DNA of 26,911 nucleotides, from NCBI GenBank assembly GCA_946482365.1, contig CAMLQY010000024.1, positions 1-26,911 of the forward strand, in the 5' to 3' direction. The position numbers and the translations under genes are program-made. The notes beneath the pieces are model-generated. The model saw only the letters and a list, made by a program, of their open reading frames with translations, made no database searches and had not been told where the DNA came from. Shown here one piece after another: positions 1 through 21,716 of the stretch. Positions within the stretch are counted from its first letter, which is position 1, and each line of letters starts with the position of its first letter. The DNA comes from an uncultured Actinomycetes bacterium (lineage in GTDB: Bacteria; Actinomycetota; Thermoleophilia; Solirubrobacterales; 70-9).

Positions 1-50
1 CCCTCCCCAAAACACTCCAGCGAGGCTCCCGCCGAGCGTTTTGGGGAGGG
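1..50. repeat. Family-1 palindromic element, copy A (cut by the window edge)
   Basis: Arms 1-17 (CCCTCCCCAAAACACTC) and 34-50 (GAGCGTTTTGGGGAGGG) pair over 17 positions with one A/C mismatch, around a 16-nt loop. The 34-nt core (9-42) differs by one base from the cores at 12250-12283 and, on the other strand, 11966-11999. The bases after it (51-64) resemble the outer arm of copy B, so the arm probably continues left of the window. There is no T-tract, so it is not a classical intrinsic terminator. Confidence 0.85.
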
Positions 51-103
51 GTGCCGGCGTCCCCACCCTCAAGCCTCCCTGCGTCGCGGCCGATGCCTCG
101 GAC

Positions 104-3844: not shown

Positions 3845-3902
3845 CCGACGCAAGCACCATCGGAACGACACTTGGCCGACCTTCGCCACTATGGTCTTCG
3901 TC

Positions 3903-4997: not shown

Positions 4998-6005
4998 TCA
5001 GCCGACCTTGGGGGCGATCTCGGCGGGCTCGCCGCCGGGCATCCAGTGGGCCTCGGGCGAGGGCGGGGTGTCGCGCAGGTACCACTCGGCGTCGAGGGCG
5101 CCCATGCAGCCGGTGCCGGCGGCGGTGACCGCCTGGCGGTAGGTGTGGTCGACGACGTCGCCGACGGCGAAGACGCCGGCCAGGTTGGTCCTGGTCGAGC
5201 CTGGCTGGGTGACGATGTAGCCCTCCTCGTCGGTGTCGAGCTGGCCGACCACGATCTCCGATTTCGGGATGTGGCCGATCGCGATGAAGGCGCCGTCGGC
5301 CTCGAAGTCCTCGCTCTCGCCGCTCTCGACGTCGCGCAGGCGCACGTGGCCGAGCTTGCCGTCCTCGCCGGCGACGAACTCCTCGGCGACGAACGGGGTC
5401 TTGAACTCGATGTTGTCCCGCTCGCGCGCCCTCTCCTGCATGATCTTCGAGGCGCGGAACTCGTCGCGGCGGTTGACCACGGTCAGCTCGCTGGCGTACT
5501 TGGAGATGAAGATCGAGTCCTCCATCGCCGAGTCGCCGCCGCCGATCACGATCACCTTGCGGTCTTTGAAGAAGGCGCCGTCGCAGACGCCGCAGGTGGA
5601 GACGCCGCGGCCGCCCAGCTCCATCTCCCCCGGCACGCCGAGCCGGCGCGGCTCGGCTCCCATTGCCAGGATCACGGTCTTCGCCAGGTGCTCCTCGTCG
5701 CCGAGGAAGACCTTCTGCACGCCGCCGTCGGAGAGCTCGACCCGGTCGACGTCGTCGGTGACGAAGCGGGTGCCGAAGCGCTCCGCCTGGGCACGGAACT
5801 GGCTCATCATCTCCGGCCCCATGATCCCCTCGGGATAGCCCGGGTAGTTCTCGACGTCGGTCGTGTTCTGCAGCTGCCCGCCCCACTGGAAGCCCTCGAA
5901 GACGAGCGGCTCGAGGTTGGCGCGGGCGGTGTAGAGCGCGGCCGTGTAGCCGGCGGGGCCGCCGCCGACGATGATCACGTTCTCGACCTTCCTGCCCTCT
6001 GTCAT
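4998..6005 (-). CDS. trxB: Thioredoxin reductase
   Basis: A 335-aa FAD/NADPH flavoprotein of normal TrxB length. It has an N-terminal FAD-binding GGGPAGY (14-20), the redox-active CGVC at 138-141 within STCGVCDG, a NADPH-binding GGGDSAMED (~154-162), and a C-terminal FAD motif GVFAVGDVVD. It transfers electrons from NADPH to thioredoxin in the cytoplasm. The ATG (6003-6005) overlaps the stop of the upstream membrane-protein gene by 4 nt (ATGA), so it is the last gene of a three-gene minus-strand operon. The CGVC active site differs from the more common CATC. Confidence 0.95.
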   Translation of the reverse strand: MTEGRKVENVIIVGGGPAGYTAALYTARANLEPLVFEGFQWGGQLQNTTDVENYPGYPEGIMGPEMMSQFRAQAERFGTRFVTDDVDRVELSDGGVQKVFLGDEEHLAKTVILAMGAEPRRLGVPGEMELGGRGVSTCGVCDGAFFKDRKVIVIGGGDSAMEDSIFISKYASELTVVNRRDEFRASKIMQERARERDNIEFKTPFVAEEFVAGEDGKLGHVRLRDVESGESEDFEADGAFIAIGHIPKSEIVVGQLDTDEEGYIVTQPGSTRTNLAGVFAVGDVVDHTYRQAVTAAGTGCMGALDAEWYLRDTPPSPEAHWMPGGEPAEIAPKVG

Positions 6006-7135
6006 GTCCGCTCCGAGTCTAGTGACGCTGCCAATACTTTACTTTGTATAGTACCGCGCTCAGCCGGCAGATCCCCCCTCTCCCATTCGTGCGCGGTGTG
6101 GCGGAGCTGGAGGAAGGCGACGATCCCCAGCGGCAGCGGCATCCAGAAGGCGATCAGGCGGTAGACCAGGATCGCCGGGAAGACGGTCTCCTCGGGGATG
6201 CCGAAGAGGACGAAGGCGCCGATCATCCCGGCGTCCACCGCACCCACGCCCGCGGGGGCCAGGGGGAAGAGGTTGGCGACCATGCCGAGGAAGAAGCCCT
6301 GGACGACGACGGCGAGCGGCACGTGGACGCCGAATGCCTTGAAGGAGGCCCAGAGGATGCCGATGTTGGCCGCCCAGAACCCGGCGGCGCCGAGCACCGC
6401 CAGCCCGCCGCGCGAGGGGCTGGCGAAGAGCCCGGCCGTGAACCTCAGCCCCTCGCCGACGACCGCCGGCACCTTGGCGACGCTGGCGACGATCGCCTTG
6501 CTCCGCTCGCTGCGGGCGAACCCGGTGACCCGCCGCCCCAGGTCGGGCGGGATCAACGCGACGAGCACCCCGAGGATCAGCAGCAGGCCGGCGACGCCGG
6601 CGGGGACGATCGTCAGCTCGACCGAGCCCTTGCCGGGCACGACTCCGGTGCGCAGCAGGACCCCGCAGACGATCAGCGCAACCGGATAGAAGACGTACTG
6701 CAGCGCGAGAAAGGCGACCATCCGCCTCCCCGCCTCGTGCCGGGGCATCCCGGCCTTGCGCAGCGCCCAGAAGCTGAGCACGATGCCGCCCGCTCCCCCC
6801 GCCGAGAAGAGCCGGGTCGCGGCGAGGCCCGCCATGTTGATCTCGTAGGTCTCCTTCCAGCTCAGCGGCATCACGTCGCCGCCGACCACGGCCTTGAACA
6901 GCGCCACGTAGGTGGCGATCGCGACGACGTTGAAGGCGATCGCCACCGCCACCCAGAGCAGCTCGGCTTCGCTGAGCTTGCCGAGGGCGTCGCCGAGGCC
7001 GACCAGCCGCGGGAAGAGGAAGTAGATCGCGACCAGCACGACGAGGACGAGCAGCGTGGTCTGGGCGACTCGTCGCCGCGTGAAGATCGGAAGCTCAGCG
7101 GCGTCGCCGCCGTTCGCCGAACCCTCTGGAGACAC
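6002..7135 (-). CDS. Lysylphosphatidylglycerol synthase TM-region / UPF0104 membrane protein
   Basis: A 377-aa polytopic protein (about eight hydrophobic helices) starting at GTG 7135. It carries typical PF03706-family segments such as NMAGLAATRLFSAGGAGG and NLFPLAPAGVGAVDAG with conserved Gly/Pro. This family includes the flippase half of MprF and other lipid-linked transport proteins; no aminoacyl-transferase domain is attached, so lipid or isoprenoid translocation is more likely than lysine transfer. It sits 10 bp after a PAP2 phosphatase gene, which supports a lipid-related role. The last ~16 codons are AT-richer than the rest of the gene. Confidence 0.8.
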   Translation of the reverse strand: MSPEGSANGGDAAELPIFTRRRVAQTTLLVLVVLVAIYFLFPRLVGLGDALGKLSEAELLWVAVAIAFNVVAIATYVALFKAVVGGDVMPLSWKETYEINMAGLAATRLFSAGGAGGIVLSFWALRKAGMPRHEAGRRMVAFLALQYVFYPVALIVCGVLLRTGVVPGKGSVELTIVPAGVAGLLLILGVLVALIPPDLGRRVTGFARSERSKAIVASVAKVPAVVGEGLRFTAGLFASPSRGGLAVLGAAGFWAANIGILWASFKAFGVHVPLAVVVQGFFLGMVANLFPLAPAGVGAVDAGMIGAFVLFGIPEETVFPAILVYRLIAFWMPLPLGIVAFLQLRHTAHEWERGDLPAERGTIQSKVLAASLDSERT

Positions 7136-7145
7136 CTAAGGGAAG

Positions 7146-8090
7146 CTACCCGCTCGCGAGGCGCTCCAAGCGGCGCAGGCCCCGGTTCACCGCGTGGACG
7201 GCGGGTTCGGCGAGCGGCTCGCCGCGCCTGACGGTGGCGACGAGACCTGCCCCGGCGAGCAGGTCGGTGACGTAGTGCTCGCCCAGGTAGACGAGCGCGA
7301 AGCCGAGCGCCGTCGCGTATCCCCACCCGACCGCGCCCTCGGCCCTGCCCGCTTCGGAGAGCGAGATCGCGGCCATCGTCGAGGTGGCGAAGTGCAGCGA
7401 GGGCATCGCCGCCCAGGGATTGCCCCCGAGCGCCCCGTACATCGCCGGCCAGGCCGAGCGCCAGGTCTCTTCGCCGACGCCGACCATGATCCGGCGCACC
7501 TCTTCCCCGCTCAGCCCCTGCTCGGAGGCCCACCACGGCGGCGCCGTCGGCACCGCGAAGTAGCCGACGCAGCCGAGGTCGAAGACCGCGGCCATCTGGC
7601 GGGCCGCCCGCGGGAAGCGCTCGGGATGGCGCAGCAGGATCCAGATCAGCGCGGCGTAGGGCTCGAGGAACCAGAGCCAGTGCACCCAGGTGAGCATGCG
7701 GTCGAGCGAGTCGACGCGAGGGAAGCGGGCCAGGGCGCGCTGGAGGCGGGCGTTGGGGAGCCGGCCGAGCCCGATCGCGCGGTCGACCGCGATCGGGTAG
7801 CGGGTGCGCAGCCGGCGGCGCAACCGCTCGGGGTCGTCGTAGGGCAGCTCGTGCACCATCGTGAAGGCCCACATCTGCATCGCGAAGAGCGCGACGTCGC
7901 GCTTGTGCGAGCGGGGATAGAGGACGGCAAGCGCCAGCGGGCCGGCGGCGCAGCTCGCGATCGTCACTCCGGCGGGCACACGCAGGCGCCTGCGCAGCAG
8001 CGGCACGGCGACCGCGGCGGCGACTGCGCCGGCGGCCCCGGCGCGCAGGGCCGCGCGAAGCGCCGGAGATGGCCGGGATCGCCTGCGCAT
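7146..8090 (-). CDS. PAP2-superfamily membrane phosphatase (inositolphosphotransferase-like)
   Basis: A 314-aa membrane protein. The phosphatase motifs are PSLHFATS (PSLH at 230-233) and GEHYVTD (His272, Asp276), with the PTAPPWW motif (181-187) of the PAP2_3 / Aur1-type group. These enzymes hydrolyse or transfer phosphate between membrane lipids, using the two histidines as nucleophile and acid/base. The exact substrate is unknown. It starts at ATG 8090 just after a TATACT box, and is the first gene of an operon with a flippase-like protein and trxB. Confidence 0.85.
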   Translation of the reverse strand: MRRRSRPSPALRAALRAGAAGAVAAAVAVPLLRRRLRVPAGVTIASCAAGPLALAVLYPRSHKRDVALFAMQMWAFTMVHELPYDDPERLRRRLRTRYPIAVDRAIGLGRLPNARLQRALARFPRVDSLDRMLTWVHWLWFLEPYAALIWILLRHPERFPRAARQMAAVFDLGCVGYFAVPTAPPWWASEQGLSGEEVRRIMVGVGEETWRSAWPAMYGALGGNPWAAMPSLHFATSTMAAISLSEAGRAEGAVGWGYATALGFALVYLGEHYVTDLLAGAGLVATVRRGEPLAEPAVHAVNRGLRRLERLASG

Positions 8091-8100
8091 AGGGTCGGCG

Positions 8101-8106
8101 AGTATA
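8101..8106 (-). promoter_or_regulatory. Predicted -10 box for the PAP2-trxB operon
   Basis: TATACT on the minus strand lies 10 bp before ATG 8090, so the transcript would be leaderless or nearly so. No good -35 element is seen. Confidence 0.45.
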
Positions 8107-8166
8107 TGGAGCCCCCACCCACCCTGGGCGAAGGGACGGGCGCCGCGGCGCGCCGCCCTGCGTGAT

Positions 8167-8172
8167 TAGAAT
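8167..8172 (+). promoter_or_regulatory. Predicted -10 box for the pseudo-oxidase operon
   Basis: TGATTAGAAT contains a near-consensus TAGAAT preceded by TG, as in extended -10 promoters. The transcript start would fall at or near the TTG start codon at 8182, suggesting a leaderless mRNA. There is no clear -35. Confidence 0.45.
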
Positions 8173-8181
8173 GGCCGCGCT

Positions 8182-8868
8182 TTGAGCCCTAACTCGCCTG
8201 GCACCGACCAGATCGAAACCCTGCTTTGGATTGGCTTCATCGCCGCGACGATCGTCGTCGCCGCGGTCAACGGCGCGCTGGTCTACGCGCTGCGCCGTCG
8301 CAACGCCGCCGTTCGCGAGCCGGCGACCGGGCGGCACACCCAATTCCGGGTCGGCGCCCTGCTCACCGTCTTCGCAGCCGCGATCTTCGTCGTCAGCATC
8401 GTCTACACGGGGAAGGCGCGCGAGACCCCGGCCACCGGGCCGGCGGGCCTCGCCTCCGCCCGCTCGGAGCCGCTCCGGATCCAGGCGACGGGCCAGCAGT
8501 GGCTCTGGCGCTACGACTACCCGAACTCCGCCTACTCCTATTACAAGCTCGTCGTGCCGGTGGACACCGCGGTCGAGCTCGACCTCGTCTCCACCGACGT
8601 GATCCACACCTGGGACGTGCCGGCGCTGGCAGGCAAGCGCGACGCCGTCCCCGGCAAGACGAGCCACGTCGTCTTCCGCGCCGAGGAGGAGGGGACCTAC
8701 GAGGGGCAGTCGGCGACCTTCTCCGGCCAGGCCTACGCCGCGATGCGCACCGCCGTCGAAGTGGTCTCGGCGGCGGAGTACGAAGACTTCCTCGAGAGCC
8801 AGAAAGCCGACATCCAGGCAGCCCAGGACCGCGTCGTCGGCCTGATCGAAGGGGGAGAGACACCGTGA
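8182..8868 (+). CDS. Cytochrome oxidase subunit II homolog lacking the CuA cysteines
   Basis: A 228-aa protein starting at TTG 8182. Two N-terminal helices (~10-35 and ~55-75) precede a cupredoxin domain of COX2 type. It retains LRIQATGQQWLWRYDYPNS and DVIHTWDVPALAGKRDAVPG (His142), so the fold is a subunit II. The CuA loop reads QSATFSGQAYAAM, where the usual pattern is CxExCGxxHxxM: Ser177 and Ser181 replace both Cys, Thr replaces Glu, Tyr185 replaces His, and only Met188 remains. It should not form CuA. Quinol oxidase subunits also lack CuA, but the partner subunit I here is degenerate as well. The stop overlaps the GTG of the next gene (GTGA), indicating coupled translation. Confidence 0.85.
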   Translation: MSPNSPGTDQIETLLWIGFIAATIVVAAVNGALVYALRRRNAAVREPATGRHTQFRVGALLTVFAAAIFVVSIVYTGKARETPATGPAGLASARSEPLRIQATGQQWLWRYDYPNSAYSYYKLVVPVDTAVELDLVSTDVIHTWDVPALAGKRDAVPGKTSHVVFRAEEEGTYEGQSATFSGQAYAAMRTAVEVVSAAEYEDFLESQKADIQAAQDRVVGLIEGGETP

Positions 8869-10616
8869 GCGACCCGATCGACGCGGTGACTGCCGGGGGT
8901 TCGAATCCGCGGCGATCGGGTCGCGAACCCGGTGTGGCTGGCGGAGCGCGTCCCGAGATCGTCTCCGACGGCTTCCCCAGGCGCCGCCCGCGCTGGATGG
9001 AGATCGCCGGCAGCGCCGACCACAAGGACGTCGGCCGCATGATGATCGTCGCCTCCCTCGGCTTCCTCTTCATCGCCCTGGTGGAGCTGCTGCTGATGCG
9101 CCTGCAGCTGGCGATCCCCGAGAACACGTTCCTGACGCCGGTCACCTTCAACCGGATGCTCTCGCTCTACGGCGCCACGGCGATCTTCCTCTTCGCGATC
9201 CCCCTGGCACTCGGCCTCTTCTACTACCTGGCGCCGCTGCAGGCGGGGGCGCGGGGCACGGCCCTGCCGCGCCTCGGGCAGATCGGGCTCTGGCTCTACA
9301 TAGCCGGCGCGACCGTCCTCTACTCGGGCTTCCTCTTCACCCCCTCCGAGGCGGGCGTCAACCCGCTGGCGCCCCTCTCCGAGCTCGCCTTCCTGCCCAA
9401 CAACGGGGTCGACGCCTGGGCCGCCGCGAACGGCCTGGTGACGCTCGGCTTCGTCCTGATCGCGATCAACCTCGTCGCGACCCTGCACAGGCTGCGCGCG
9501 CCCGGCATGGCCTGGCGCCGCCTGCCCGTCTTCACCTGGGCGGCCGCGATCTGCTCCTGGCTGCTGCTCGTGATCGGCCCGGTGATGCTCGGCGCGATCG
9601 CGATGCTGCTGATCGACCGCAACTTCGACGGGATCTTCTTCGCCGACGGCTCGGGCGGGGCGCCCCTGCTCTGGGAGCACCTCAGCTGGACCTTCTTCAC
9701 GGGCGCCTACATGCTGATCCTGATCGCGGCCCTGGCGGCGATCGCCGAGATCGTCCCCGCCTTCGCCGGCAGGCCGCTGCAGGGGCGCCGCGTCGTGGTC
9801 GGCTCGCTGATCGCGATCGCAGCGATCGGCACGCTCGCCTGGATGCAGAACATGCTGACCGCGCCGATCGGGATCGGCTGGATGTACTACGCGATGCTGA
9901 TGTCCCTGGCGCTGATCGTCCCCTTCGGCCTCGTCCTCTACAACCTGATCGCGACGCTGGCCGGCGGCGTCCTGCACATGCGCGCGCCGCTGCTCTTCGC
10001 CCTCGGCGCGATCTCGGCGATCTCGATCGGCCTCGCGTCCGAGATCTCGCACTCGATGGTCGCGGTCGCCTGGCGCCTGCAGCACACCACCGACTCCACC
10101 GCGGCGACCCACTTCGCCCTCGTCGGCGGTGCGGTCCTCGGCGGCTTCGCCGCCCTGCACTACTGGTTCCCGAAGCTGACCGGGCGGACGATGGGCGAGA
10201 CGATGGCGCGGATCTCGTTCTGGACGATCGCACTGGGCACCCTGCTCGCCTTCGTGCCGCTCTTCTTCGCCGGCGGCGAGCACGGCGAGGTCGTCGACGC
10301 CTACAAGTTCTTCAGCGGCACCGGGGTGAGCGGCCTCAACCTGATCGCCTCGATCGGCGCCTTCGTGCTGGCGGCCGGGATCGTCCTCACGCTCGCCAAC
10401 GCGATCCTCAGCCGCACAGGCGGCGCCCGCGCCGGCCACGACCAGTGGGGGGCCGACTCGCTCGAGTGGTTTGCGCTCTCGCCCCCGGAGCCGCACAACT
10501 TCGACGTCCTGCCCGACGTGCGCAGCGACCGGCCGATGCGCGACATCCGCGAGGCGATCGCCCACCGCACGCGCCGCGCCGAGCCTGCGGCGCCCGAGAA
10601 GCAGCCGGTAGCCTGA
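8865..10616 (+). CDS. Heme-copper oxidase subunit I homolog with lost metal ligands (pseudo-oxidase)
   Basis: A 583-aa polytopic protein (~12 helices) starting at GTG 8865, after a GGGGGAGA ribosome site. Family identity is clear from IFLFAIPLALGLFYYLAPLQ, LLWEHLSW, HYWFPKLTGRTMGE and the C-terminal DSLEWFALSPPEPHNFD. By eye alignment with the intact subunit I at 19004-20911, the helix II heme His is Tyr102; the helix VI CuB His and cross-link Tyr are Thr279 and Met283; the helix VII CuB His-His pair is Gln328-Asn329; the K-channel Lys is Val357; and the heme a3 His is Ala414. Only His416 (low-spin heme position) remains. There are no stops or frameshifts, and helices and loops are well kept, so this looks like a selected, catalytically silent protein. 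Residues 1-44 are a disordered extension encoding a hairpin. Confidence 0.85.
   Translation: MSDPIDAVTAGGSNPRRSGREPGVAGGARPEIVSDGFPRRRPRWMEIAGSADHKDVGRMMIVASLGFLFIALVELLLMRLQLAIPENTFLTPVTFNRMLSLYGATAIFLFAIPLALGLFYYLAPLQAGARGTALPRLGQIGLWLYIAGATVLYSGFLFTPSEAGVNPLAPLSELAFLPNNGVDAWAAANGLVTLGFVLIAINLVATLHRLRAPGMAWRRLPVFTWAAAICSWLLLVIGPVMLGAIAMLLIDRNFDGIFFADGSGGAPLLWEHLSWTFFTGAYMLILIAALAAIAEIVPAFAGRPLQGRRVVVGSLIAIAAIGTLAWMQNMLTAPIGIGWMYYAMLMSLALIVPFGLVLYNLIATLAGGVLHMRAPLLFALGAISAISIGLASEISHSMVAVAWRLQHTTDSTAATHFALVGGAVLGGFAALHYWFPKLTGRTMGETMARISFWTIALGTLLAFVPLFFAGGEHGEVVDAYKFFSGTGVSGLNLIASIGAFVLAAGIVLTLANAILSRTGGARAGHDQWGADSLEWFALSPPEPHNFDVLPDVRSDRPMRDIREAIAHRTRRAEPAAPEKQPVA
8871..8922. repeat. Palindrome inside the 5' end of the pseudo-oxidase subunit I gene
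   Basis: GACCCGATCG (8871-8880) pairs perfectly with 8913-8922, then CGCGG (8882-8886) with 8907-8911 after one A/G mismatch, leaving a 20-nt loop. An alternative pairing, 8897-8903 with 8924-8930, would exclude it. It begins 6 nt after the GTG start. Confidence 0.6.
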
Positions 10617-10621
10617 CGGCG

Positions 10622-11515
10622 ATGGATTCCACCGCCGCGGCGGTCACCCGCCACTCAGCGGCTCCAAGCGCTCTTCGCGACTACCTGACGCTTACCAAGC
10701 CGAAGGTGCAGTCGCTGCTGCTGCTGACCACGATCACGACCATGTACGTGGCCGGCGACCCCTCGCTCGGCCTCGTCTTCCTGGTCTGCCTCGGCGGCGC
10801 CCTCTCAGCCGGCGGCGCCGGCGCGATCAACCACGCGATCGACCGCGACGTCGACCGGATCATGGCCCGCACCGCGACCCGGCCGGTCGCGGCGGGGCGG
10901 ATCTCGCCCCAGGCCGCCGTCGCCTTCGGGGCCCTGCTCGGCTGCGCCTCCTTCGCCCTGCTGGCCCTGGCGGTGAACCCGCTGGCGGCGGCGCTCTCGA
11001 TCTCGGGCCTGTTCGGCTACGTCTTCGTCTACACGCTCTGGCTCAAGCGCTCGACGCCCCAGAACATCGTGATCGGCGGCGCGGCCGGCGCGGTGCCGCC
11101 GCTGGTCGCCTGGGCGGCCGTCACGGGCGGGCTGAGCGGCACCGCCTTCTACCTCTTCGCGATCGTCTTCTTCTGGACCCCGCCGCACTTCTGGGCCCTC
11201 TCGCTGCTGATGAAGGACGAGTACGCCAAGGCCGGCATCCCGATGCTGCCCGTGGTCCGCGGCGAGGACGAGACCCGGCGCCAGATCCTCCTCTACACGG
11301 TGCTCCTCTACGCCGTCACCCAGCTCCCCTTCTGCGCCGGCGGGTTCGGCGTCGAGTACCTGGTCGCCTCGATGACGCTCGGGGCGGGGTTCATCTACTG
11401 CGCCGTTCGCCTGCTGCGCAGCGCCGACCGGCGCTGGGCCCTGCGCACCTACCTCTTCTCGCTCGCCTACCTCGCGCTGCTCTTCGTCGCGATGCCGCTC
11501 GACCGGGCCTTCTAG
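10622..11515 (+). CDS. ctaB: Protoheme IX farnesyltransferase (heme O synthase)
   Basis: A 297-aa UbiA-type prenyltransferase with about nine helices. The catalytic Asp-rich motif NHAIDRDVDRIMARTATRP (NxxxDxxxD) is intact, and the second conserved region YTLWLKRSTPQNIVIGGAAG is present. It attaches a farnesyl group to heme b to give heme O, the precursor of heme A. ATG 10622 lies 5 bp after the pseudo-oxidase subunit I stop. It looks fully active, so it most likely supplies heme for the intact oxidase at 17506-21716 together with the heme A synthase at 13654-14631. Confidence 0.95.
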   Translation: MDSTAAAVTRHSAAPSALRDYLTLTKPKVQSLLLLTTITTMYVAGDPSLGLVFLVCLGGALSAGGAGAINHAIDRDVDRIMARTATRPVAAGRISPQAAVAFGALLGCASFALLALAVNPLAAALSISGLFGYVFVYTLWLKRSTPQNIVIGGAAGAVPPLVAWAAVTGGLSGTAFYLFAIVFFWTPPHFWALSLLMKDEYAKAGIPMLPVVRGEDETRRQILLYTVLLYAVTQLPFCAGGFGVEYLVASMTLGAGFIYCAVRLLRSADRRWALRTYLFSLAYLALLFVAMPLDRAF

Positions 11516-11528
11516 TAAAAATCCGGGC

Positions 11529-11642
11529 GTGGACCGCGAGACAGCAAGATCGAGCATCTCCGCCGGCCTCCTCGCCGGCGGCATCGCCACAGCCGTCTTC
11601 GCCCTCAGCTTCCTGGTGGCGGTCCTCTACGTCGCCTCATGA
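11529..11642 (+). CDS. 37-aa single-helix membrane protein in the pseudo-oxidase operon
   Basis: A small ORF from GTG 11529 to TGA 11642, starting MDRETARSSISAGLLAGG, with one hydrophobic helix (about residues 13-36). Its TGA overlaps the ATG of the next gene by 4 nt, and it lies 13 bp after ctaB, which supports its being translated. Small single-helix subunits are common in oxidase operons, so a minor-subunit role is plausible but only inferred. No clear Shine-Dalgarno is seen. Confidence 0.55.
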   Translation: MDRETARSSISAGLLAGGIATAVFALSFLVAVLYVAS

Positions 11643-11932
11643 GCCCCGAGCACCGACATGTCCCCGAGCCCGGAGAGCTGGTCCATGCGCCCGGGCCCTC
11701 ATGGGCACCCGCGGTCTTCGCCCTCGCCCTCGCCCTCGCCGTCTGCGGCATCTTCGCCGAGGGATTCATGGTCCGCGGCTGGATCTACTCGATCATCGGC
11801 CTCGTGATCGCCCTCTTCGCCTTCCGCAGCATGGTCCGCGGTTCGATCCGCGACTACTTCCGCCTCCCGCGCAAACAGCACGTCCGCGGGGCCGTCCTCC
11901 CGGTCGAACAGATCAGCCCTTCGAAGCGCTAG
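11639..11932 (+). CDS. Small two-helix membrane protein, cytochrome oxidase subunit IV-like
   Basis: A 97-aa protein with a His/Pro-rich N-terminus, two hydrophobic helices (~24-40 and ~48-64) and a basic C-terminal tail (RDYFRLPRKQHVRG). This size and topology match the small subunit IV-type proteins encoded near actinobacterial oxidase genes. Assignment rests mainly on position at the end of the ctaB-containing operon. The start overlaps the preceding 37-aa ORF (ATGA). A large palindromic element begins 12 bp after the stop. Confidence 0.6.
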   Translation: MSPEHRHVPEPGELVHAPGPSWAPAVFALALALAVCGIFAEGFMVRGWIYSIIGLVIALFAFRSMVRGSIRDYFRLPRKQHVRGAVLPVEQISPSKR

Positions 11933-11944
11933 CGGGGTTGTTTG

Positions 11945-12020
11945 GGGATGCCGGTGCCCCTACCCAAAACGCTCGGCGGGAGCCTCGCTTGAGTGTTTTG
12001 GGTAGGGGCACCGGCATCCC
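11945..12020. repeat. Family-1 palindromic element, copy B
   Basis: Arms 11945-11965 and 12000-12020 are perfectly complementary over 21 bp. Core arms AAAACGCTC and GAGTGTTTT extend the stem to 30 bp with one G/T wobble, around a 16-nt loop (11975-11990). The 34-nt core 11966-11999 is the reverse complement of cores A and C with one or two changes. It lies 12 bp after the plus-strand stop at 11932, so it could act as a strong 3'-end hairpin, but there is no T-tract. Confidence 0.9.
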
Positions 12021-12237
12021 ATCAACAGCGCACGAGCTTCGAAAGCTTCCTCCCCCAGGCGTCAACTCGGCTCCCGGGAAAGCTCCAGATGCCCTAGGTT
12101 CCGTCACGGGCGCCACAAGCTTTTAAAAGCGCTCGAAAAGCGCCGGTCTCTCACTTGGGCCTGGAAGCTTGGGGACCTTGATCCCTGGATCGCAGCCCGA
12201 GCCTTGCCGAGAGCTGTGTCACCCGAAAGGCCTGCGG
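12021..12237. other. Spacer between palindromic copies B and C
   Basis: No gene is convincing here. The short ORFs that cross it owe their length to the palindromes. It contains a perfect 12-nt palindrome GCTTTTAAAAGC (12119-12130) and an adjoining 5-bp hairpin (12129-12143). It is slightly less GC-rich than its surroundings. Confidence 0.5.
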
Positions 12238-12295
12238 GGGTCCCTCTCCAAAACACTCCAGCGAGGCTCCTGCCGAGCGTTTTGGAGAGGGACCC
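12238..12295. repeat. Family-1 palindromic element, copy C
   Basis: Arms GGGTCCCTCTCC (12238-12249) and GGAGAGGGACCC (12284-12295) pair perfectly. The core 12250-12283 matches copy A at 33 of 34 positions. The outer arm differs from A and B yet is self-complementary. It lies 28 bp beyond the end of the minus-strand CBS gene and is inverted relative to copy B. Confidence 0.9.
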
Positions 12296-12323
12296 AGGCC
12301 CCAGGCTCCACTCCGCAAGTCAG

Positions 12324-12725
12324 TCAGTCCGGCGTCATCCCGGAGGTCGCCCCCTCAGAGGTCCAGACGCGGACGATGTCGCGCATCGAGAGGACGCCGA
12401 CCAGCTCGGGGCCGTCGTAGACGACCAGGTGGCGAATCCCGCGGCGCGACATCTCGGCGGCGGCCCGCTCGAGGCTCCATTCCGGCGAGGCGACGATCAC
12501 GCTGTCGCTCATGTGGTCGGCGACGCGCTCGGAATCGGGGTCCTCGCCACTGCCCAGGGAGAGCAGGATGTCGCGCTCGGTGAGGATGCACGGAACCGGG
12601 GTCTCGTCGTCGGCGACCAGCGCTGCGCCGACCCCTTTCTCGGCCATCATCGTCGCCGCATCGCGCAGAGTGTGCGACGGGCCGACCGTGAGGACCACGT
12701 TCGACATGCCTTCCCGTACCTGCAT
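12324..12725 (-). CDS. Two-CBS-domain protein
   Basis: A 133-aa cytoplasmic protein made almost entirely of a CBS pair (about residues 5-60 and 70-128). Signatures are TLRDAATMMAEKGVGAALVADD…TERDIL and SLERAAAEMSRRGIRHLVVYD…LSMRDIV. CBS pairs bind adenosyl ligands such as AMP or ATP and act as energy or redox sensors. With no attached effector domain, the target is unknown. It has a very good ribosome site, AGGAGG, 6 nt before ATG 12725. Its upstream region faces the di-heme cytochrome c gene, so the two are divergently transcribed. Confidence 0.9.
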   Translation of the reverse strand: MQVREGMSNVVLTVGPSHTLRDAATMMAEKGVGAALVADDETPVPCILTERDILLSLGSGEDPDSERVADHMSDSVIVASPEWSLERAAAEMSRRGIRHLVVYDGPELVGVLSMRDIVRVWTSEGATSGMTPD

Positions 12726-12798: not shown

Positions 12799-12822
12799 GG
12801 GAGCTTTCGCGGGACCGTGGCG

Positions 12823-12848
12823 TATAGACTCCGGCGCGCTTCGCGCCG
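12823..12848 (+). promoter_or_regulatory. -10 box and start-proximal hairpin of the cytochrome c gene
   Basis: TATAGA (12823-12828) is a good -10 box without a clear -35. It is followed by a perfect 7-bp hairpin, CGGCGCG-CTT-CGCGCCG (12832-12848), ending one base before ATG 12850. A hairpin there would hinder ribosome loading. Confidence 0.4.
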
Positions 12849-12849
12849 T

Positions 12850-13602
12850 ATGCCCAAGATCTCGACCGCCATCCGCCCCCTGCTCGCCCTCGTCGCCGTC
12901 GCGGCCGTGGCGCTGCCGGCTTCCGGCTGCGGCACCAGCGACGCCGACCCCGAAAGGGGTCGGGCCCTCTTCATCCAGAAGTGCGGCGCCTGCCACGGAA
13001 TGGCGCAGGCGGGAACGGCTGACGGCGTCGGCCCCAACCTCGACGACGCCTTCGCCGCGGCTCGCGCCGTCGGCGAGAACGACGAGACGGTCAAGGGCGT
13101 GGTCGAAGCGCAGGTCGAGTTCCCCAGGCCGAGCAACGACAACCCGGCGGTCTCGATGCCCGCCGGGTTGGTCAGCGGTCAGGACCTCCACGACGTGGCT
13201 GCCTACGTCGCGCTTTACGCCGGCGTTCCCGGCGCCGCGCCGCCCACGGTCCCGGGCGGCCCCGGTGCCCAGGTGTTCGCCGACAACGGCTGCGGGGGCT
13301 GCCACACGCTGGCCGCCGCCAAATCGGGCGGCGTGACCGGCCCCAACCTCGACGAAGTCCTGGCCGGCCAGAGCGCCGCGATGGTCCACGAGTCGATCGT
13401 CGACCCGAACAAGGTCATCGCCAAGGGCTATCCGCCCAACGTGATGCCGGCCAACTACGAACAGATGCTCACCCCGAAAGAACTCGAAGACCTGGTCCAG
13501 TACCTGCTCGAATCGGCCTCTGGCGGCGGCAAAGGCAAGGGCAGGGGCAAGGGCTCCGCACCGCCCTACGAAGGCCCGCCAGTTCACGCCTCCGGCGACT
13601 GA
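12850..13602 (+). CDS. Di-heme cytochrome c, probable lipoprotein
   Basis: A 250-aa protein. An N-terminal hydrophobic segment ends in LPASGC (Cys27), a plausible lipobox, so it is likely exported and lipid-anchored. Two cytochrome c domains follow, each with one heme-binding motif: CGACH at 45-49 with candidate axial Met103 (SMPAG), and CGGCH at 148-152 with Met199 (VMPANY). The C-terminus is a flexible Gly/Lys-rich tail (GGGKGKGRGKG). It probably carries electrons to the CuA site of the intact oxidase. ATG 12850 is preferred because the upstream GTG 12817 precedes the -10 box. Heme A synthase follows 51 bp later on the same strand. Confidence 0.9.
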   Translation: MPKISTAIRPLLALVAVAAVALPASGCGTSDADPERGRALFIQKCGACHGMAQAGTADGVGPNLDDAFAAARAVGENDETVKGVVEAQVEFPRPSNDNPAVSMPAGLVSGQDLHDVAAYVALYAGVPGAAPPTVPGGPGAQVFADNGCGGCHTLAAAKSGGVTGPNLDEVLAGQSAAMVHESIVDPNKVIAKGYPPNVMPANYEQMLTPKELEDLVQYLLESASGGGKGKGRGKGSAPPYEGPPVHASGD

Positions 13603-13653: not shown

Positions 13654-14631
13654 ATGCGCGACCGCCTCCGCATCTCTCCGCAGCTCTACGCGACCGTGGC
13701 GCTGGTCGCCCTTGCCGCACTCTCGCTGATCGTCCTCACCGGCGCCGCCGTCCGGATCACCGGCTCGGGGCTCGGCTGCCCGGACTGGCCCAAATGCTAC
13801 GGCGGCACGGTGCCACCGCTCGAGACCCACGCCGTGATCGAGTACGGCAACAGGCTGCTCACCGGCTTCGTCGGCCTCGCCGTGATCGCCGCCAGCGCCC
13901 TGGCCTGGTTCCGCCAGCCGTTCCGGGGCCACCTGGCGTTCTTCGGGGCCCTGCTGCCGCTCGGCGTCGTCTGCCAGGCGATCCTCGGCGCCCTCGTCGT
14001 CAAGTACCACCTGGCGCCGGGGCTGGTGATGGGCCACTTCATCCTCTCGATGCTGCTGCTCGACGCCGCCTTCGCCCTCGCCTGGTGCGCCCGCTACGAG
14101 CCCGGCGAGCGGCGCGCCTCGAGCGATCGGCTCGGCGTCTGGGCGGTGCGCGCGCTGATCCCCCTCGGCCAGCTGACGATCCTCGCGGGGACGATCGCAA
14201 CCGGCTCCGGGCCCCATGCCGGCGCCCACGAGGGTGAGCTCGTACACCGCTTCGACTTCGAGGGCACGGGAACGCTGGAGTGGGTCGTGCAGCGCCACTC
14301 GGCGATCGCCGCCGTCTTCGGTCTCGCCGCGATCGCCGTCTGGCTTCTCCTGCGCCGCCAGGGGGGCGACAGGAGGGCCTGCGGGCCACTGGGGGCCGTC
14401 ATCTGCCTGCTAGGCCTGCAGGGCGTCGTGGGAGGCGTCCAGTGGGCGCTGGAGCTGCCAGCGGAGATCGTCTGGCTTCACGTCGCCCTCGCCACCGCCA
14501 CCTGGCTGGCGATGCTGTGGGCAGTCGCGAGCGCAGGGCGCCTGGAGCCATCGAATCGCGAGCTCGTCACCGAGGGCCCGACTGAGCCTCGGTCAATGGG
14601 TGCAGGAGCGAGAGCGCCTGTCAAGGCGTGA
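13654..14631 (+). CDS. ctaA: Heme A synthase (CtaA/COX15 family)
   Basis: A 325-aa protein with about eight helices in two four-helix bundles. The family motif GLGCPDWPKCYGG with its Cys pair (~41-48) is present, followed by AVIEYGNRLLTG with the catalytic Glu, and histidines in VMGHFILSM, VVQRHSAIA and VWLHVALATA. Asn rather than His in EYGNR is, to my knowledge, a usual actinobacterial variant. It oxidises the C8 methyl of heme O to formyl, giving heme A for the aa3-type oxidase. A modest GAGG site lies before ATG 13654. The last 39 bases overlap a convergent small ORF. Confidence 0.93.
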   Translation: MRDRLRISPQLYATVALVALAALSLIVLTGAAVRITGSGLGCPDWPKCYGGTVPPLETHAVIEYGNRLLTGFVGLAVIAASALAWFRQPFRGHLAFFGALLPLGVVCQAILGALVVKYHLAPGLVMGHFILSMLLLDAAFALAWCARYEPGERRASSDRLGVWAVRALIPLGQLTILAGTIATGSGPHAGAHEGELVHRFDFEGTGTLEWVVQRHSAIAAVFGLAAIAVWLLLRRQGGDRRACGPLGAVICLLGLQGVVGGVQWALELPAEIVWLHVALATATWLAMLWAVASAGRLEPSNRELVTEGPTEPRSMGAGARAPVKA

Positions 14632-17505: not shown

Positions 17506-18129
17506 TTAGAGGATGTAAACCGTTGTATAGACGACTATCCACATCACGTCGACGAAGTGCCAGTAGATGCCCGGGACCTCGACGCCGAGGTGGTCCTTGG
17601 CCGCGGGGCCGAAGTGGCCGCGGAAGGCGCGGATCGTGGCGAAGCTGAGCAGCAGCAGGCCGACGAAGACGTGGGCTCCGTGCAGGCCGGTGAGGCTGTA
17701 GAAGATCGAGCCGAAGCCGAGGTCGCGGGCGCTGAAGCCGATGTGCACGTACTCGTTTACCTGGATGAAGAGGAAGGTGGCCCCGAGCAGCCAGGTCAGC
17801 ACCAGGCCGAGTTTCAGGCCGCGGTGGTTGCCGCGCCGGATCGACTCCAGCGCGTAGTGGATCGTGAAGCTGGAGGAGACCAGGATCGCGGTGTTGATCC
17901 CGGCCACGGCCACCGGCAGCTCGTAGGGCTCCGGCGGCCAGGTCGGCGGGTCGACGACGACCCGGAGGAAGAAGTAGGCGGCGAAGAAGGCGCCGAAGAG
18001 CATCACCTCGGAAACGATGAAGAGCAGGATCCCCAGCGTCTGGCGGTCGATCCGCGAGCTCTCGTGGGCCTCGGGGGGGCCGTGGTGCTCCTCGTGGGCG
18101 TGACCCAGCGTGACCGTCGCGCTCTCCAT
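17506..18129 (-). CDS. ctaE: Cytochrome c oxidase subunit III
   Basis: A 207-aa protein with a His-rich N-terminal tail and five helices. It shows subunit III features: GILLFIVSEVMLFGAFFAAYFFLR, the TGLHGAHVFVG motif and the C-terminal GIYWHFVDVMWIVVYTTVYIL. Its length matches short, five-helix COX3 proteins. Subunit III stabilises the oxidase and supports proton uptake and oxygen access. ATG 18129 overlaps the stop of the USP-like gene (ATGA). It is the last gene of the glycosyltransferase-coxB-coxA-usp-coxC operon. The other oxidase locus has no subunit III of its own. Confidence 0.93.
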   Translation of the reverse strand: MESATVTLGHAHEEHHGPPEAHESSRIDRQTLGILLFIVSEVMLFGAFFAAYFFLRVVVDPPTWPPEPYELPVAVAGINTAILVSSSFTIHYALESIRRGNHRGLKLGLVLTWLLGATFLFIQVNEYVHIGFSARDLGFGSIFYSLTGLHGAHVFVGLLLLSFATIRAFRGHFGPAAKDHLGVEVPGIYWHFVDVMWIVVYTTVYIL

Positions 18130-19007
18130 CAGGGCGTCTCCCCTCCCTCGGCTACGGCAGCCGCGACGGCGGCCGCAGGGCGGCCCACCTCGAGATGCTC
18201 GACGGACTTGTCGGTGATCTCGCGCACCTTGCCGATCAGGTCGTCCTCGAGCCAGCGCGAGCTCTCGCCGGCGAAGGTCGAGATCAGCACCTCGTCGATG
18301 CTGTAGTGCTCGATCGCGTTCTTCACGGCATGGAAGGGGTCGGGGCTCATCGGCTGCCCGGTGGCGTCGACGTCTGCCCGGTAGAGCTCGGCCAGCGTCG
18401 AGGCGAGGTCGCGGACGATCTGCGGCTCGGTCACGTCATCCGCGCGCGGGCAGATGATCGTGTAGCGGTGCGGGTGGCCGGCGGCGCGCTCCTTGAGCCG
18501 GCCGACCAGGTCCGGCGCGGCCACGGTCTGGGTCGCCACGACCAGCGTGTGGCTCTTCTCCCAGCTGATCGAGTCGTCTGAGATCCGCACGGGGATGTGG
18601 GTGACCTCGACCTCAGGCTCGAAGCGGTCCGTCGCCCAGGCGACCAGGTCCTTGCGGGTGAGGCCGAAGCGCGTCTCCGCGGCGCAGGAGAGAAGCACCT
18701 CGCAGGGTTCGTGGGCGCGGATCGCGTCGTCGAGCGCCAGCGACGGGTCGATGTCCATCACCTCGCCGACCGAGTCGACCCCGTACTCGGAGAGGATCGA
18801 CATCGTCACCTCGACCCGGGCCCGCGCGGCGTCGCGCAGTTCGCCCGAGTCGGTCAGCTGGCCGATCGCGGGCTGGTTCTGAGGCGCGGCGACGGCCACG
18901 AAGGGGACGCGGTCAGCCCTCTCCTGCACAGCCTGCAGCAGCTTGCGCCCACCCGCCACCTCGTTGAGGAAGACGAGCAGGGGACGTGCCTCGGGGGTCC
19001 CGCTCAT
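18129..19007 (-). CDS. Two-domain USP-like protein encoded inside the cox operon
   Basis: A 292-aa soluble protein from ATG 19007, with no signal peptide or membrane segment. It looks like two related alpha/beta domains: residues ~8-140 (RPLLVFLNEVAGGRKLLQAV … DPSLALDDAIRAHEPCEVLLS) and ~150-275 (HTLVVATQTVAAPDLVGRL … DPFHAVKNAIEHYSIDEVLIST, SRWLEDDLIGKV). The layout suggests tandem universal-stress-like domains. It overlaps coxA upstream and coxC downstream by 4 nt each, so it is tightly co-translated with the oxidase and may help its assembly or sense its state; this is inference. The membrane-anchored protein at 14867-15523 is a paralog. Confidence 0.75.
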   Translation of the reverse strand: MSGTPEARPLLVFLNEVAGGRKLLQAVQERADRVPFVAVAAPQNQPAIGQLTDSGELRDAARARVEVTMSILSEYGVDSVGEVMDIDPSLALDDAIRAHEPCEVLLSCAAETRFGLTRKDLVAWATDRFEPEVEVTHIPVRISDDSISWEKSHTLVVATQTVAAPDLVGRLKERAAGHPHRYTIICPRADDVTEPQIVRDLASTLAELYRADVDATGQPMSPDPFHAVKNAIEHYSIDEVLISTFAGESSRWLEDDLIGKVREITDKSVEHLEVGRPAAAVAAAVAEGGETP

Positions 19008-20911
19008 GTGGAGCCCACCACCGTCGTCCGTGGCTCCGCCGGTGACTCGACGCTCTCGCCGGCCATGATCGCGTGCCTCGCGCCGGGCACGCCGAACTCG
19101 TATGGGCCGCCGACCACGCGGGGGATCTCGTCGAAGTTGAAGATCGGCGGCGGCGAGGAGACCTGCCACTCGATCGAGTTGGCCCGCCACGGGTTGGCCT
19201 CCGCGCGCGGGCCGAAGCGCCAGCTGACGACCATGTTGTAGAGGAAGACGAGCTGGCAGGCGCCGAGCAGGAAGGCACCGCAGCTGATCAGGATGTTCCA
19301 CTCGCCGAACTGGGTCGCGTAGTCGGCGACCCGCCGCGGCATCCCGTCCATGCCGACCCAGTGCATCGGGATGAAGGTGACCCAGGTCCCGACGAGCGTG
19401 CCCCAGAAATGGACCCGGCCGAGCCTCTCGTCGTACATCCGCCCGGTCATCTTCGGGAACCAGTGGTAGATGCCGGCGAAGATCGTGAAGACCGAGCCGC
19501 CGAAGAGGACGAAGTGGATGTGGGCGACGATGAAGTAGGTGTCGGAGACGTGGATGTCGATCGGCACCATGCCCAGCATCACGCCGCTGATGCCGCCGAT
19601 CGTGAAGGTGACGATGAAGGCGAGCGCGAACAGCATCGCCGTCGAGTAGGTGTGGATCTTGCCGAAGTAGAGCGTGCCTAGCCAGGAGAAGATCTTGATC
19701 CCGGTCGGCACGGCGATCAGCAGCGTGGTGATCATCATCGGCACCCGCAGCCAGCTGAACATGCCGGCGACGAACATGTGGTGGGCCCAGACCGAGTAGC
19801 TGAGCACGACGATCCCGATCAGCGCCAGCGCCATCAGGCGGTAGCCGAAGATCGGCTTGCGGGCGTGGGTCGAGATGACCTCGCTGATGATCCCGAAGCC
19901 GGGCAGCATCATGATGTAGACGGCCGGGTGCGAGTAGAACCAGAAGATGTGCTGGTAGCTGACCACGTCGCCGCCCCCGGCGAACTCGAAGAACTGGGTG
20001 CCGAGGGCCCGGTCGAAGAGGACCATGAACTGGACGCCGGCGATGAAAGGCGTCGCGGCGACGACCAGCAGCGAGGTCGAGAGGTTCGCCCAGACCAGCA
20101 GCGGCATGCGCCAGAAGGTCATTCCGGGCGCACGCATAGTGATGATCGTCACTAGGAAGTTCAGAGCGGTGGCGATCGAGGAGGCGCCGGCGAACTGGAC
20201 TCCGAGGTTGAAGAACGACTGCCCCAGCGGCGCCCCGGTCGAAAGCGGCGCATACCCGGTCCAGCCGGTGTCGAAGGCGCCGCCGGGCGCCAGGAAGCTG
20301 CCGATGAAGAGCAGCCCGGCCAGCGGCAGCATCCAAAAGCTAAGCGCGTTCAGCCGCGGGAAGGCCATGTCCGGCGCGCCGATCATCAGCGGCAGGACGT
20401 AGTTGGCGATCCCGGCGAAGACCGGGATCACGAAGAGGAAGATCATCAGCACCGCGTGGGTGGAGAAGAGGCTGTTGTAGGTGGCGACGTCGACGATCTG
20501 GGTGCCCGGCTGCGCCAGCTCGGCCCGGACCAGCATCGCCATCAGCCCGCCCACGAAGAAGAAGAAGAAGGTGGTGACGATGTACTGGATGCCGATCACC
20601 TTGTGGTCGGTGTTGAAGCGGAAGTAGTCCCTCCAGCTCTTGGCGCCGTGCTGGGAGTGGTCCTCGGGAATGGTCGGCATGCCGACGGCCCAGCGCACCC
20701 AGTAGTCGAAGCAGCCGAAGCCGGCGAGGAAGCCGAGCGGGCCGGTCACCAGCGGCACGACGATGTGCGGGTAGCCGGTCTGCTCGGTCTGGTAGAGCGG
20801 CAGGTCGGAAATCGCGCGGAGGGCGATGACGAGGCCGAAGCCGAAGCCGGCGCCGAGCAGCGCGCCGAGCACGCCACGAATCCACCCCGGTCGCTTGATC
20901 GCAGCCACCAT
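19004..20911 (-). CDS. ctaD: Cytochrome c oxidase subunit I, A2-type, with N-terminal extension
   Basis: A 635-aa protein with all catalytic residues: heme a His152 (STHAVLM) and His466, CuB His328/His377/His378, heme a3 His464 (VAHIHFV), cross-link Tyr332 and K-channel Lys406. YSHPAVY lacks the Glu of A1 enzymes and has the Tyr-Ser pair typical of A2 enzymes. It reduces oxygen to water and pumps protons. The first ~95 residues contain two extra helices (~12-34 and 48-68) before the canonical core begins at HKVIGIQYIVTTFFFFFVGG. ATG 20911 lies 13 bp after coxB, and the stop overlaps the USP-like gene. Confidence 0.96.
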   Translation of the reverse strand: MVAAIKRPGWIRGVLGALLGAGFGFGLVIALRAISDLPLYQTEQTGYPHIVVPLVTGPLGFLAGFGCFDYWVRWAVGMPTIPEDHSQHGAKSWRDYFRFNTDHKVIGIQYIVTTFFFFFVGGLMAMLVRAELAQPGTQIVDVATYNSLFSTHAVLMIFLFVIPVFAGIANYVLPLMIGAPDMAFPRLNALSFWMLPLAGLLFIGSFLAPGGAFDTGWTGYAPLSTGAPLGQSFFNLGVQFAGASSIATALNFLVTIITMRAPGMTFWRMPLLVWANLSTSLLVVAATPFIAGVQFMVLFDRALGTQFFEFAGGGDVVSYQHIFWFYSHPAVYIMMLPGFGIISEVISTHARKPIFGYRLMALALIGIVVLSYSVWAHHMFVAGMFSWLRVPMMITTLLIAVPTGIKIFSWLGTLYFGKIHTYSTAMLFALAFIVTFTIGGISGVMLGMVPIDIHVSDTYFIVAHIHFVLFGGSVFTIFAGIYHWFPKMTGRMYDERLGRVHFWGTLVGTWVTFIPMHWVGMDGMPRRVADYATQFGEWNILISCGAFLLGACQLVFLYNMVVSWRFGPRAEANPWRANSIEWQVSSPPPIFNFDEIPRVVGGPYEFGVPGARHAIMAGESVESPAEPRTTVVGST

Positions 20912-20924
20912 CAGTCAGCCTCCA

Positions 20925-21716
20925 TTATGCCCCGCCGGCGCCCAGGGGCACCGGGTCGGTCTCAGTGTCTTGGACGACGGACTCCATCAGCGGCTCGGGC
21001 ACCGTCTCCTCCAGCCCGGCGACCCATTTGCGGAAGTCGGCCGGGGTTTCGACGACGACCTTGGCCCGCATCGAGGCGTGGCCGAAGCCGCAGAGCTCGG
21101 TGCAGATCAGCTGGTAGGTGCCAAGCTTGTCGGGCGTGACGATCGCGGTCGTCGTGATCCCGGGCACGTTGTCCTTCTTGATCCGCCACTCCGGCACCCA
21201 GAAGGAATGGATCACGTCCTGGGCGTGCATCTTGAAGTGGACCTGGCGACCTAGCGGGACGTGCAGCTCTCCCTCCGACCAGGCGTTTTCCTTGCCCGGG
21301 TACCCGAAGCTCCAGGCGAACTGCTGGGAGAAGACCTGGACCTTGAGCGCGTCATCGACCGGCTCTTCGATCTTCTCGAGGACCCACCAGCTGTAGCCCG
21401 CGCCGAAGAGCACGATGATCGTCGGGATCACGGTCCAGGCCACCTCGAGGCGGGTGTTGCCGTGGATCGGCTCGCCGTCGGACTCGTCACCCGGCTTGGC
21501 TTTGAACTTCCACAGGGCGTAGAAGAGCATCACCATCACCAGCGAGAAGACGAAGGCCGAGAGGACGATCATCACGCTGAGCAGCTGGTCGATCTTCGGC
21601 GCCGCCGTCGACGCCCCCTGGCCGTTCCAGTTGATCGGCACCATGACCGCCGAGATCACGACGGTGCCCACGAGCGTGGCGGCGAGCATCTTGGCTATCG
21701 GGAGGCGCCCGATCAT
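20925..21716 (-). CDS. ctaC: Cytochrome c oxidase subunit II with intact CuA site
   Basis: A 263-aa protein with an N-terminal signal/anchor (~8-27), a second helix pair (~44-70 and 93-113) and a cupredoxin domain. CuA ligands are complete: His170 (DVIHSFWVP), Cys205, Glu207, Cys209, His213 and Met216 in CTELCGFGHASM. It accepts electrons from cytochrome c, probably including the di-heme protein at 12850-13602; no cytochrome c domain is fused. It lies 12 bp after the glycosyltransferase stop and 13 bp before coxA. Confidence 0.95.
   Translation of the reverse strand: MIGRLPIAKMLAATLVGTVVISAVMVPINWNGQGASTAAPKIDQLLSVMIVLSAFVFSLVMVMLFYALWKFKAKPGDESDGEPIHGNTRLEVAWTVIPTIIVLFGAGYSWWVLEKIEEPVDDALKVQVFSQQFAWSFGYPGKENAWSEGELHVPLGRQVHFKMHAQDVIHSFWVPEWRIKKDNVPGITTTAIVTPDKLGTYQLICTELCGFGHASMRAKVVVETPADFRKWVAGLEETVPEPLMESVVQDTETDPVPLGAGGA

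Follow-up and report, generated by a model that had tools for sequence, protein, structure and literature searches.

A predicted ligand-free, two-subunit pseudo-oxidase conserved in a lineage of soil and freshwater Thermoleophilia

Subunit I of the heme-copper oxidases is highly conserved, and the ligands of its metal centres are the signature of the superfamily. Quinol oxidases have a subunit II (CyoA or QoxA) devoid of CuA, paired with a subunit I that keeps all redox centres, and cytochrome bd contains CydB, a heme-free membrane subunit that is the structural partner of the heme-bearing one. Here we describe two adjacent genes, psII and psI, whose products resemble subunits II and I of cytochrome c oxidase and almost certainly form, as judged by comparative sequence analysis, a conserved, ligand-free, two-subunit pseudo-oxidase. 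They lie in a stretch of 26,911 nucleotides (the window) from an uncultured Actinomycetes bacterium (Thermoleophilia, Solirubrobacterales, 70-9; GenBank assembly GCA_946482365.1, contig CAMLQY010000024.1, positions 1 to 26,911 of the forward strand), the closest homologues of which belong to Solirubrobacterales and other Thermoleophilia. Both genes are on the plus strand: psII (8182..8868, TTG start) encodes 228 amino acids with two helices and a cupredoxin domain (PF00116, E value 4.1e-19), and psI (8865..10616, GTG start, TGA stop) encodes 583 amino acids in an open frame, the stop of the former and the start of the latter sharing 4 bases. The minus strand of the same window carries an intact oxidase, with subunit I (ctaD, 19004..20911; PF00115, E value 1.6e-151) complete in its ligand pattern and subunit II (ctaC, 20925..21716; PF02790 and PF00116) retaining the CuA site, H-C-E-C-H-M.

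Loss of metal ligands in both subunits

The psI protein is a full-length subunit I that matches Pfam COX1 across residues 56-501 (279.6 bits, E value 5.8e-83), and its 12-helix fold is predicted to be intact. It shares 31% identity with CtaD over 548 aligned columns. In this alignment, Tyr102 (codon 9168..9170) takes the place of the first heme a histidine, Thr279 and Met283 (codons 279 to 283, 9699..9713) those of the first CuB histidine and the cross-linked tyrosine, Gln328 and Asn329 (9846..9851) that of the CuB histidine pair, and Val357 (9933..9935) that of the K-channel lysine. Ala414 stands where the heme a3 histidine is expected and His416, in the place of the second heme a histidine, is alone retained (both codons within 10104..10112). 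A previous model-made reading of the letters and open reading frames, hereafter the sequence-only reading, had proposed that five of the six ligand histidines, the cross-linked tyrosine and the lysine were gone from an otherwise intact frame and fold, and the alignment agrees at each of these positions. Position 131, the D-channel aspartate of intact enzymes, is Gly, Ser, Thr or Ala in the psI family, and position 357 is Ile, Val, Leu, Ala or Thr. The protein reaches 371.2 bits against the NCBIfam model TIGR02891 (CtaD_CoxA), below the cut-off of 670.75; the intact paralogue, at 667.3, also falls just below.

These replacements are shared by close homologues. A search of 5.8 billion proteins yielded, together with two records of the window's own protein, 121 records, its hits being the best 120 of 7998 scored candidates and 82-100% identical, a set uninformative alone on more distant kin. 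Across these records the residues are Tyr at position 102 (121), Thr (120) or Ser (1) at 279, Met at 283 (121), Gln (120) or Arg (1) at 328, Asn at 329 (121), Ile (78) or Val (43) at 357, Ala (115) or Ser (6) at 414 and His at 416 (121).

Two genome searches extended the family to more divergent members. The first, a scan of GTDB contigs with a 12-member alignment seeded by the family peptides LAWMQNM and IGIGWMY, found 18 loci, 47-82% identical; the Gln-Asn pair is therefore present in those 18 partly by choice. The second was a profile search of 399 genomes of the class that did without that seed and scored at most three candidates per genome, and it returned 38 genomes with a match of at least 538 bits and a 39th in which the gene is cut by a contig end. 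The 42 frames considered below are that of the window, the 18 of the seeded scan and 23 others, all scoring at least 538 bits. No histidine occurs at any of the five lost positions in these 42 frames (the first position being unreadable in L009 and L014); the heme a3 histidine, the three CuB histidines and the cross-linked tyrosine are absent throughout, as is a lysine at position 357. The search for orthologues sharing the substitutions had been suggested in the sequence-only reading. The Gln328-Asn329 pair is found in 42 of 42 frames, including all 23 fetched without the seed stretch, and its codons are nearly uniform (CAG 41 and CAA 1 for Gln; AAC 41 and AAT 1 for Asn). His416, described earlier as the only ligand to remain, is indeed present in all 121 records, but across the family it is kept in 25 frames and gone from 17, and a heme ligand of the entire family at this position is rejected.

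Subunit II has lost its metal site as well, a point that the sequence-only reading, right about subunit I, had overlooked. When psII is aligned with CtaC and with psII of other loci, its former CuA loop (8710..8745) carries Ser177, Thr179, Ser181, Tyr185 and Met188 at the places of Cys, Glu, Cys, His and Met, and the ligand sites read H-S-T-S-Y-M instead of H-C-E-C-H-M: both cysteines, the glutamate and one histidine are gone, one histidine and the methionine remaining. Both cysteines are lost in all 39 psII loci read (the first replaced by Ser in 33 and Ala in 6, the second by Ser in 37, Asn in 1 and Ala in 1), as is the second histidine (Tyr 36, Phe 3); the glutamate is lost in 38, and the first histidine and the methionine are kept in 39 of 39. 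Intact orthologues and CtaC read H-C-E-C-H-M, save for single letters in L094 and L102. The two-helix and cupredoxin architecture of cytochrome c oxidase subunit II is retained, with a predicted fold that Foldseek matches to oxidase subunit II chains (best 2yev_B, E value 3.0e-13). Since psII lacks the CuA cysteines and psI the ligands, the redox core of the two-subunit enzyme is gone.

An artefact or frameshift as the source of the window's psI is rejected by the open frame and by the absence of internal stops in the 38 listed family matches. Local faults occur near psI residues 70-120 in three of the 42 rows (a run of N in L009, a frame change with missing letters in L007 and missing letters in L014), perhaps reflecting an assembly problem of that stretch. 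With its catalytic residues lost and its fold conserved across species, psI can be called a pseudoenzyme. Source databases label psI proteins cytochrome c oxidase subunit I, and oxidase genes may therefore be over-counted, a warning for annotation.

Descent, locus and distribution

In a tree of 69 rows (a quick search with ligand columns retained), the 42 psI proteins form one clade (Shimodaira-Hasegawa-like approximate likelihood ratio test, SH-aLRT, 100) on a stem of 1.02 changes per column. This clade stands beside 14 intact proteins (SH-aLRT 90), with the CtaD type apart. The gene neighbourhood agrees with this placement. In the window, psII-psI is flanked by a thioredoxin-reductase-like gene (named by eye) and by LPG_synthase_TM and PAP2 genes (4998..8090, minus strand; PF03706, PF14378), and the same order is found beside psII-psI elsewhere and beside most intact orthologues; next to subunits II and I, the 14 intact stretches carry TrxB in 10 cases, YbhN in 11, PAP2 in 10 and CtaB in 13. 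Since the intact relatives occupy the same genomic place, psII-psI is, on the evidence of tree and flanks, the positional orthologue of a working-type oxidase. Four of the 14 intact stretches (L088, L090, L097 and L098) also carry a second oxidase, of the CtaD type. Orthologues with intact ligands had been named beforehand as a possible sign of recent decay; they do exist, but the loss is placed at the root of a deep clade, too far back to count as recent.

As far as sampled, the psI family is confined to one lineage of the class. The next 14 frames below the 42 (at most 510 bits) keep all ligands, and 79 lower matches of the class list, read singly, comprise 78 intact proteins and one of another kind. 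In a sample of 396 genomes of the phylum searched with a 25-row profile, only four genomes exceed 850 bits, all of them already found by the class search, and the next reaches 606. Carriers of the pair are soil and freshwater bacteria; in one genome (G105), psI lies on a contig (C1) of 3,421,728 bases, which may be a closed genome from a cultivated strain. Other COX1 genes in family genomes (seven loci: L179, L180 and L182-L186) belong to other oxidase types and have the histidine ligands where readable, two frames in L186 being cut by N and L182 having a gap at the lysine. A further locus, L181 (genome G010, contig C20), gave a COX1 match of 189 bits but, in two tries, no match to the profile built for this analysis.

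Within this lineage, psI closely accompanies the active oxidase. Among the 38 listed class-sample genomes whose CtaD shares 78% or more identity with that of the window, 37 keep psI: 36 have it in the profile search, and in G372 the gene is cut by a contig end. The only listed genome of this kind without psI is G047 (L212), where the window's CtaB also has no match. Where a single contig carries both genes, as in 16 class-sample genomes, psI and CtaD are separated by 4.4 to 24 kb. A single COX3 match was found in 35 of the 41 psI genomes searched, adjoining CtaD where mapped, and the psII-psI pair therefore apparently lacks a dedicated subunit III.

The protein of another kind (L263, at L268:11135-12760, minus strand, genome G129), one of 40 controls read from the lower class-list matches, points to a second lineage with partial loss, which, like the intact orthologue at the same locus, had escaped the sequence-only reading even as its proposal of a pseudo-oxidase stood. 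L263 is without the three CuB histidines, the heme a3 histidine and the lysine, and keeps both heme a histidines and the tyrosine. It occupies the same locus as psI, its subunit II reads H-S-Q-G-F-M with CuA lost, and a CtaD with all ligands lies nearby. Among its 120 best listed homologues, nine show such loss (P0122, P0126-P0128, P0134 and P0136-P0139; some keep the last CuB histidine) and 111 are intact; the tyrosine is kept in eight of the nine, and both heme a histidines are retained. A 53-row tree groups eight of these proteins in a single clade (SH-aLRT 99) and puts the ninth, P0134, next to an intact protein. With ligand columns retained and groups named after the tree had been seen, a common origin of this second lineage with psI was rejected (p 0.024) and a single origin of all nine was not (p 0.097). 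With caution, these comparisons point to two origins of oxygen-site loss, perhaps three, and suggest an order in which the oxygen site and CuA went first and heme a last.

Constraint and candidate roles

Nei-Gojobori estimates of dN/dS (the ratio of nonsynonymous to synonymous divergence), which are rough because third positions are 97% G+C (window G+C 69%), range from 0.19 to 0.55 in the 20 psI pairs with the smallest dS, from 0.12 to 0.22 in the lowest 10 for CtaD and from 0.09 to 0.66 in the 10 lowest pairs of intact orthologues. Over all pairs, the median pN/pS (the corresponding ratio of proportions of differences) is 0.71 for psI, 0.31 for CtaD and 0.47 for intact orthologues. As far as these figures go, psI is under constraint, though less than CtaD, and its values are not near 1, the outcome that would have spoken for decay. 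Within the psI family, 108 positions are at least 95% conserved. Several columns invariant in intact enzymes have changed, including Asp 131, Asn 138 (still Asn in 4 of 42), Trp 165, Glu 281 and the Arg pair 477-478, which holds the heme propionates in known enzymes, and others have become fixed or nearly so, among them Gln328, Asn329, Arg97 (in 40 of 40 frames with a residue there), Leu390, Glu393 (40 of 42) and Asp478 (entropy 0.17), the last in place of an invariant arginine. Gln328 and Asn329 have zero entropy, and at positions 102, 279, 281, 283, 414 and 416 the variability is close to the median for membrane positions.

These patterns support the selected, non-catalytic role with a preserved fold that had been proposed at the outset: all 42 frames are without ligands and form one clade, the fold is predicted intact, and the Gln-Asn pair fixed at the place of the CuB histidines and the presence of psI in nearly all listed genomes fit the same idea. 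As to what that role might be, we tentatively favour, at somewhat short of even chances, a structural or regulatory role, without redox chemistry, as a partner of the active respiratory complex, because both the fold and the two-gene unit have been preserved, the operon supplies parts required by the active oxidase and a second oxidase occurs in nearly all genomes. Under this model, the retired enzyme, which descends from subunits II and I of a cytochrome c oxidase of the aa3 type and has lost its CuA, heme a, heme a3 and CuB ligands together with its proton-channel residues, would have been kept for its fold. psII-psI would then assemble as a two-subunit, cofactor-free membrane module that sits beside, or holds, the active CtaC-CtaD-CtaE with its small subunit, its c-type cytochrome and perhaps the bc complex, the contacts of the older oxidase in the respiratory assembly having stayed useful once the second oxidase took over the chemistry.

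Several observations weigh against this partner role. The psI protein evolves faster than CtaD (medians as above), and the fixed polar residues Gln328, Asn329, Arg97 and Glu393 in the membrane part, together with Asp478, exceed the needs of a spacer. Bulky residues filling the heme cavities are not supported either, the side-chain volume of the 12 helices being about 1630 cubic angstroms lower in psI than in intact orthologues. Genome G047 has the clade's CtaD and no psI was found in it, and conversely no full active CtaD and no COX3 were found in the psI genomes G015 and G301, a gap perhaps due to incomplete assemblies. The linkage of psI with ctaB and ctaA is ancestral, being found also at intact orthologues, and so is hardly informative on any new role.

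The main rival, which we regard as unlikely overall while giving it real weight, draws on the polar residues fixed within the membrane and holds that the core has been reused, the metal cavity having become a polar, periplasm-facing pocket or path for a small molecule or ion in a transporter, channel or sensor. Thr/Ser279, Gln328 and Asn329 would lie in mid-membrane and Arg97, Glu393 and Asp478 toward the periplasm, if the membrane sides are, as we assume, those of known oxidases. Beyond the complete or near-complete fixation of Gln328, Asn329, Arg97, Glu393 and Asp478, the lower side-chain volume may leave room for such a pocket; the loss of the D- and K-channel residues speaks against it, as does the variability at most of the remaining sites of former ligands, which is that of ordinary membrane positions (entropy 1.2-2.1; median 1.37). 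A bolder version, rather doubtful at present, envisions that an entire two-subunit oxidase, deprived of all four redox centres, became a membrane machine working without cofactors. Its new polar core, with Gln-Asn at the site of the CuB histidine pair and Arg97, Glu393 and Asp478 on the side where the heme propionates used to lie, would sense or move a small molecule or ion or gate the neighbouring active oxidase, a road on which this locus would have set out at least twice.

In 38 of the 41 loci psI is followed, on its own strand, by ctaB, and in 29 by a ctaA-like match, which in some loci precedes ctaB. This arrangement could instead indicate a part in heme A or copper assembly, with psI docking CtaB, CtaA or nascent CtaD during cofactor insertion. 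We consider this improbable: the same linkage holds where the oxidase is intact, no heme or copper ligand is fixed in the psI family and the last histidine is present in only 25 of 42 frames. Still lower is the standing of a continued redox function, with different residues holding heme or copper (in some members His416; in psII His142 and Met188). Although His142 and Met188 are present in 39 of 39 psII loci, His416 in 25 of 42 psI frames and both heme a histidines in the second lineage, the only histidines conserved in at least 90% of psI are His53, His272 and His544, the first two common to intact enzymes and none of them known to be a ligand; moreover, psI has no conserved cysteine and has lost the Arg pair that holds the propionates in known enzymes, making such a function quite improbable. 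Slow decay of functionless genes awaiting loss would fit the looser evolution, the long stem, the absence of psI from G047 and the frame of L007, broken near residue 70 as assembled, but is very improbable given the lack of internal stops in the listed matches, the 108 conserved positions, the retention of psI in 37 of 38 listed genomes and dN below dS in the 20 lowest-dS pairs.

Genomic surroundings and known systems

The ATG of ctaB (heme O synthase, 10622..11515, plus strand; NF003349, 352.8 bits against a cut-off of 246) lies, as read from the sequence, 5 bases 3' of the psI stop. It is followed by a gene for a small membrane protein (11639..11932, plus strand; no family above cut-off), a CBS gene on the opposite strand, a c-type cytochrome with two matched stretches (12817..13602, plus strand; PF00034, E value 4.7e-20) and a ctaA-like heme A synthase gene (13654..14631, plus strand; PF02628, E value 1e-27), facing the intact ctaE-ctaD-ctaC, in which ctaE encodes subunit III (17506..18129, minus strand; PF00510, E value 1.3e-40). 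The small membrane protein is probably, from its position in relatives, a small subunit of the active oxidase, and the c-type cytochrome is likely its electron donor. As a partner specific to the psII-psI pair, the small membrane gene is rejected: intact relatives carry a homologue (13 of 14 intact-orthologue genomes), in 8 of those 13 within 5 kb of a CtaD match. A bc complex specific to the psI clade is not a discriminating feature, cytochrome b being matched in 52 of the 55 genomes that the two groups comprise; a Rieske gene was seen by eye in L195.

Elsewhere, the window encodes a protein with GGDEF and HD domains (41-2122, plus strand), likely involved in cyclic-di-GMP signalling, a PIN-domain gene (3437-3844, plus strand) followed by an Mrr-type restriction endonuclease gene (3891-4895, plus strand; Mrr_N and Mrr_cat) and, between the oxidase operons, a protein of 616 residues in which four divergent InlB B-repeats were matched (15559-17409, minus strand). 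No RNA family at the gathering threshold and no tRNA was found in the window, and a promoter and terminator scan of 7900-12400 gave nothing exceeding chance.

A deep clade that keeps both subunits without a redox centre amounts to a natural experiment separating the structure of complex IV from its chemistry. In line with the initial statement that no named family like psI was known, none was found to fit it: NCBIfam oxidase models match below their cut-offs, and searches of the open-licence literature, judged by titles and abstract openings, turned up no report of an oxidase subunit I devoid of ligands. The closest systems are the A-type heme-copper oxidases (CtaD/CtaC, aa3), with which psI and psII share sequence family, 12-helix and cupredoxin folds and gene order, and from an intact, same-locus member of which the pair descends; by contrast, psII-psI lacks any complete heme a, heme a3, CuB or CuA set, the cross-linked tyrosine, the D and K residues and the propionate Arg pair. 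The second lineage (P0122, P0126 and relatives; L268) resembles psI in its locus (in L268), in the lost heme a3 and CuB ligands and, in L268, in the lost CuA, and differs in retaining both heme a histidines and, in eight of nine proteins, the tyrosine, and in its separate place in the tree. Like CyoA and QoxA, psII is devoid of CuA, and both NCBIfam models match it, but with scores (72 and 65 bits) that fall short of the cut-offs (266 and 241), and the partner psI, unlike theirs, has lost its redox centres. CydB is reported to contain a bound quinone or aromatic residues in the quinone's place (PMC8951039). It belongs to an unrelated superfamily and is part of a known enzyme, whereas psII-psI would be, on the reading favoured here, a partner of the active oxidase encoded alongside it.

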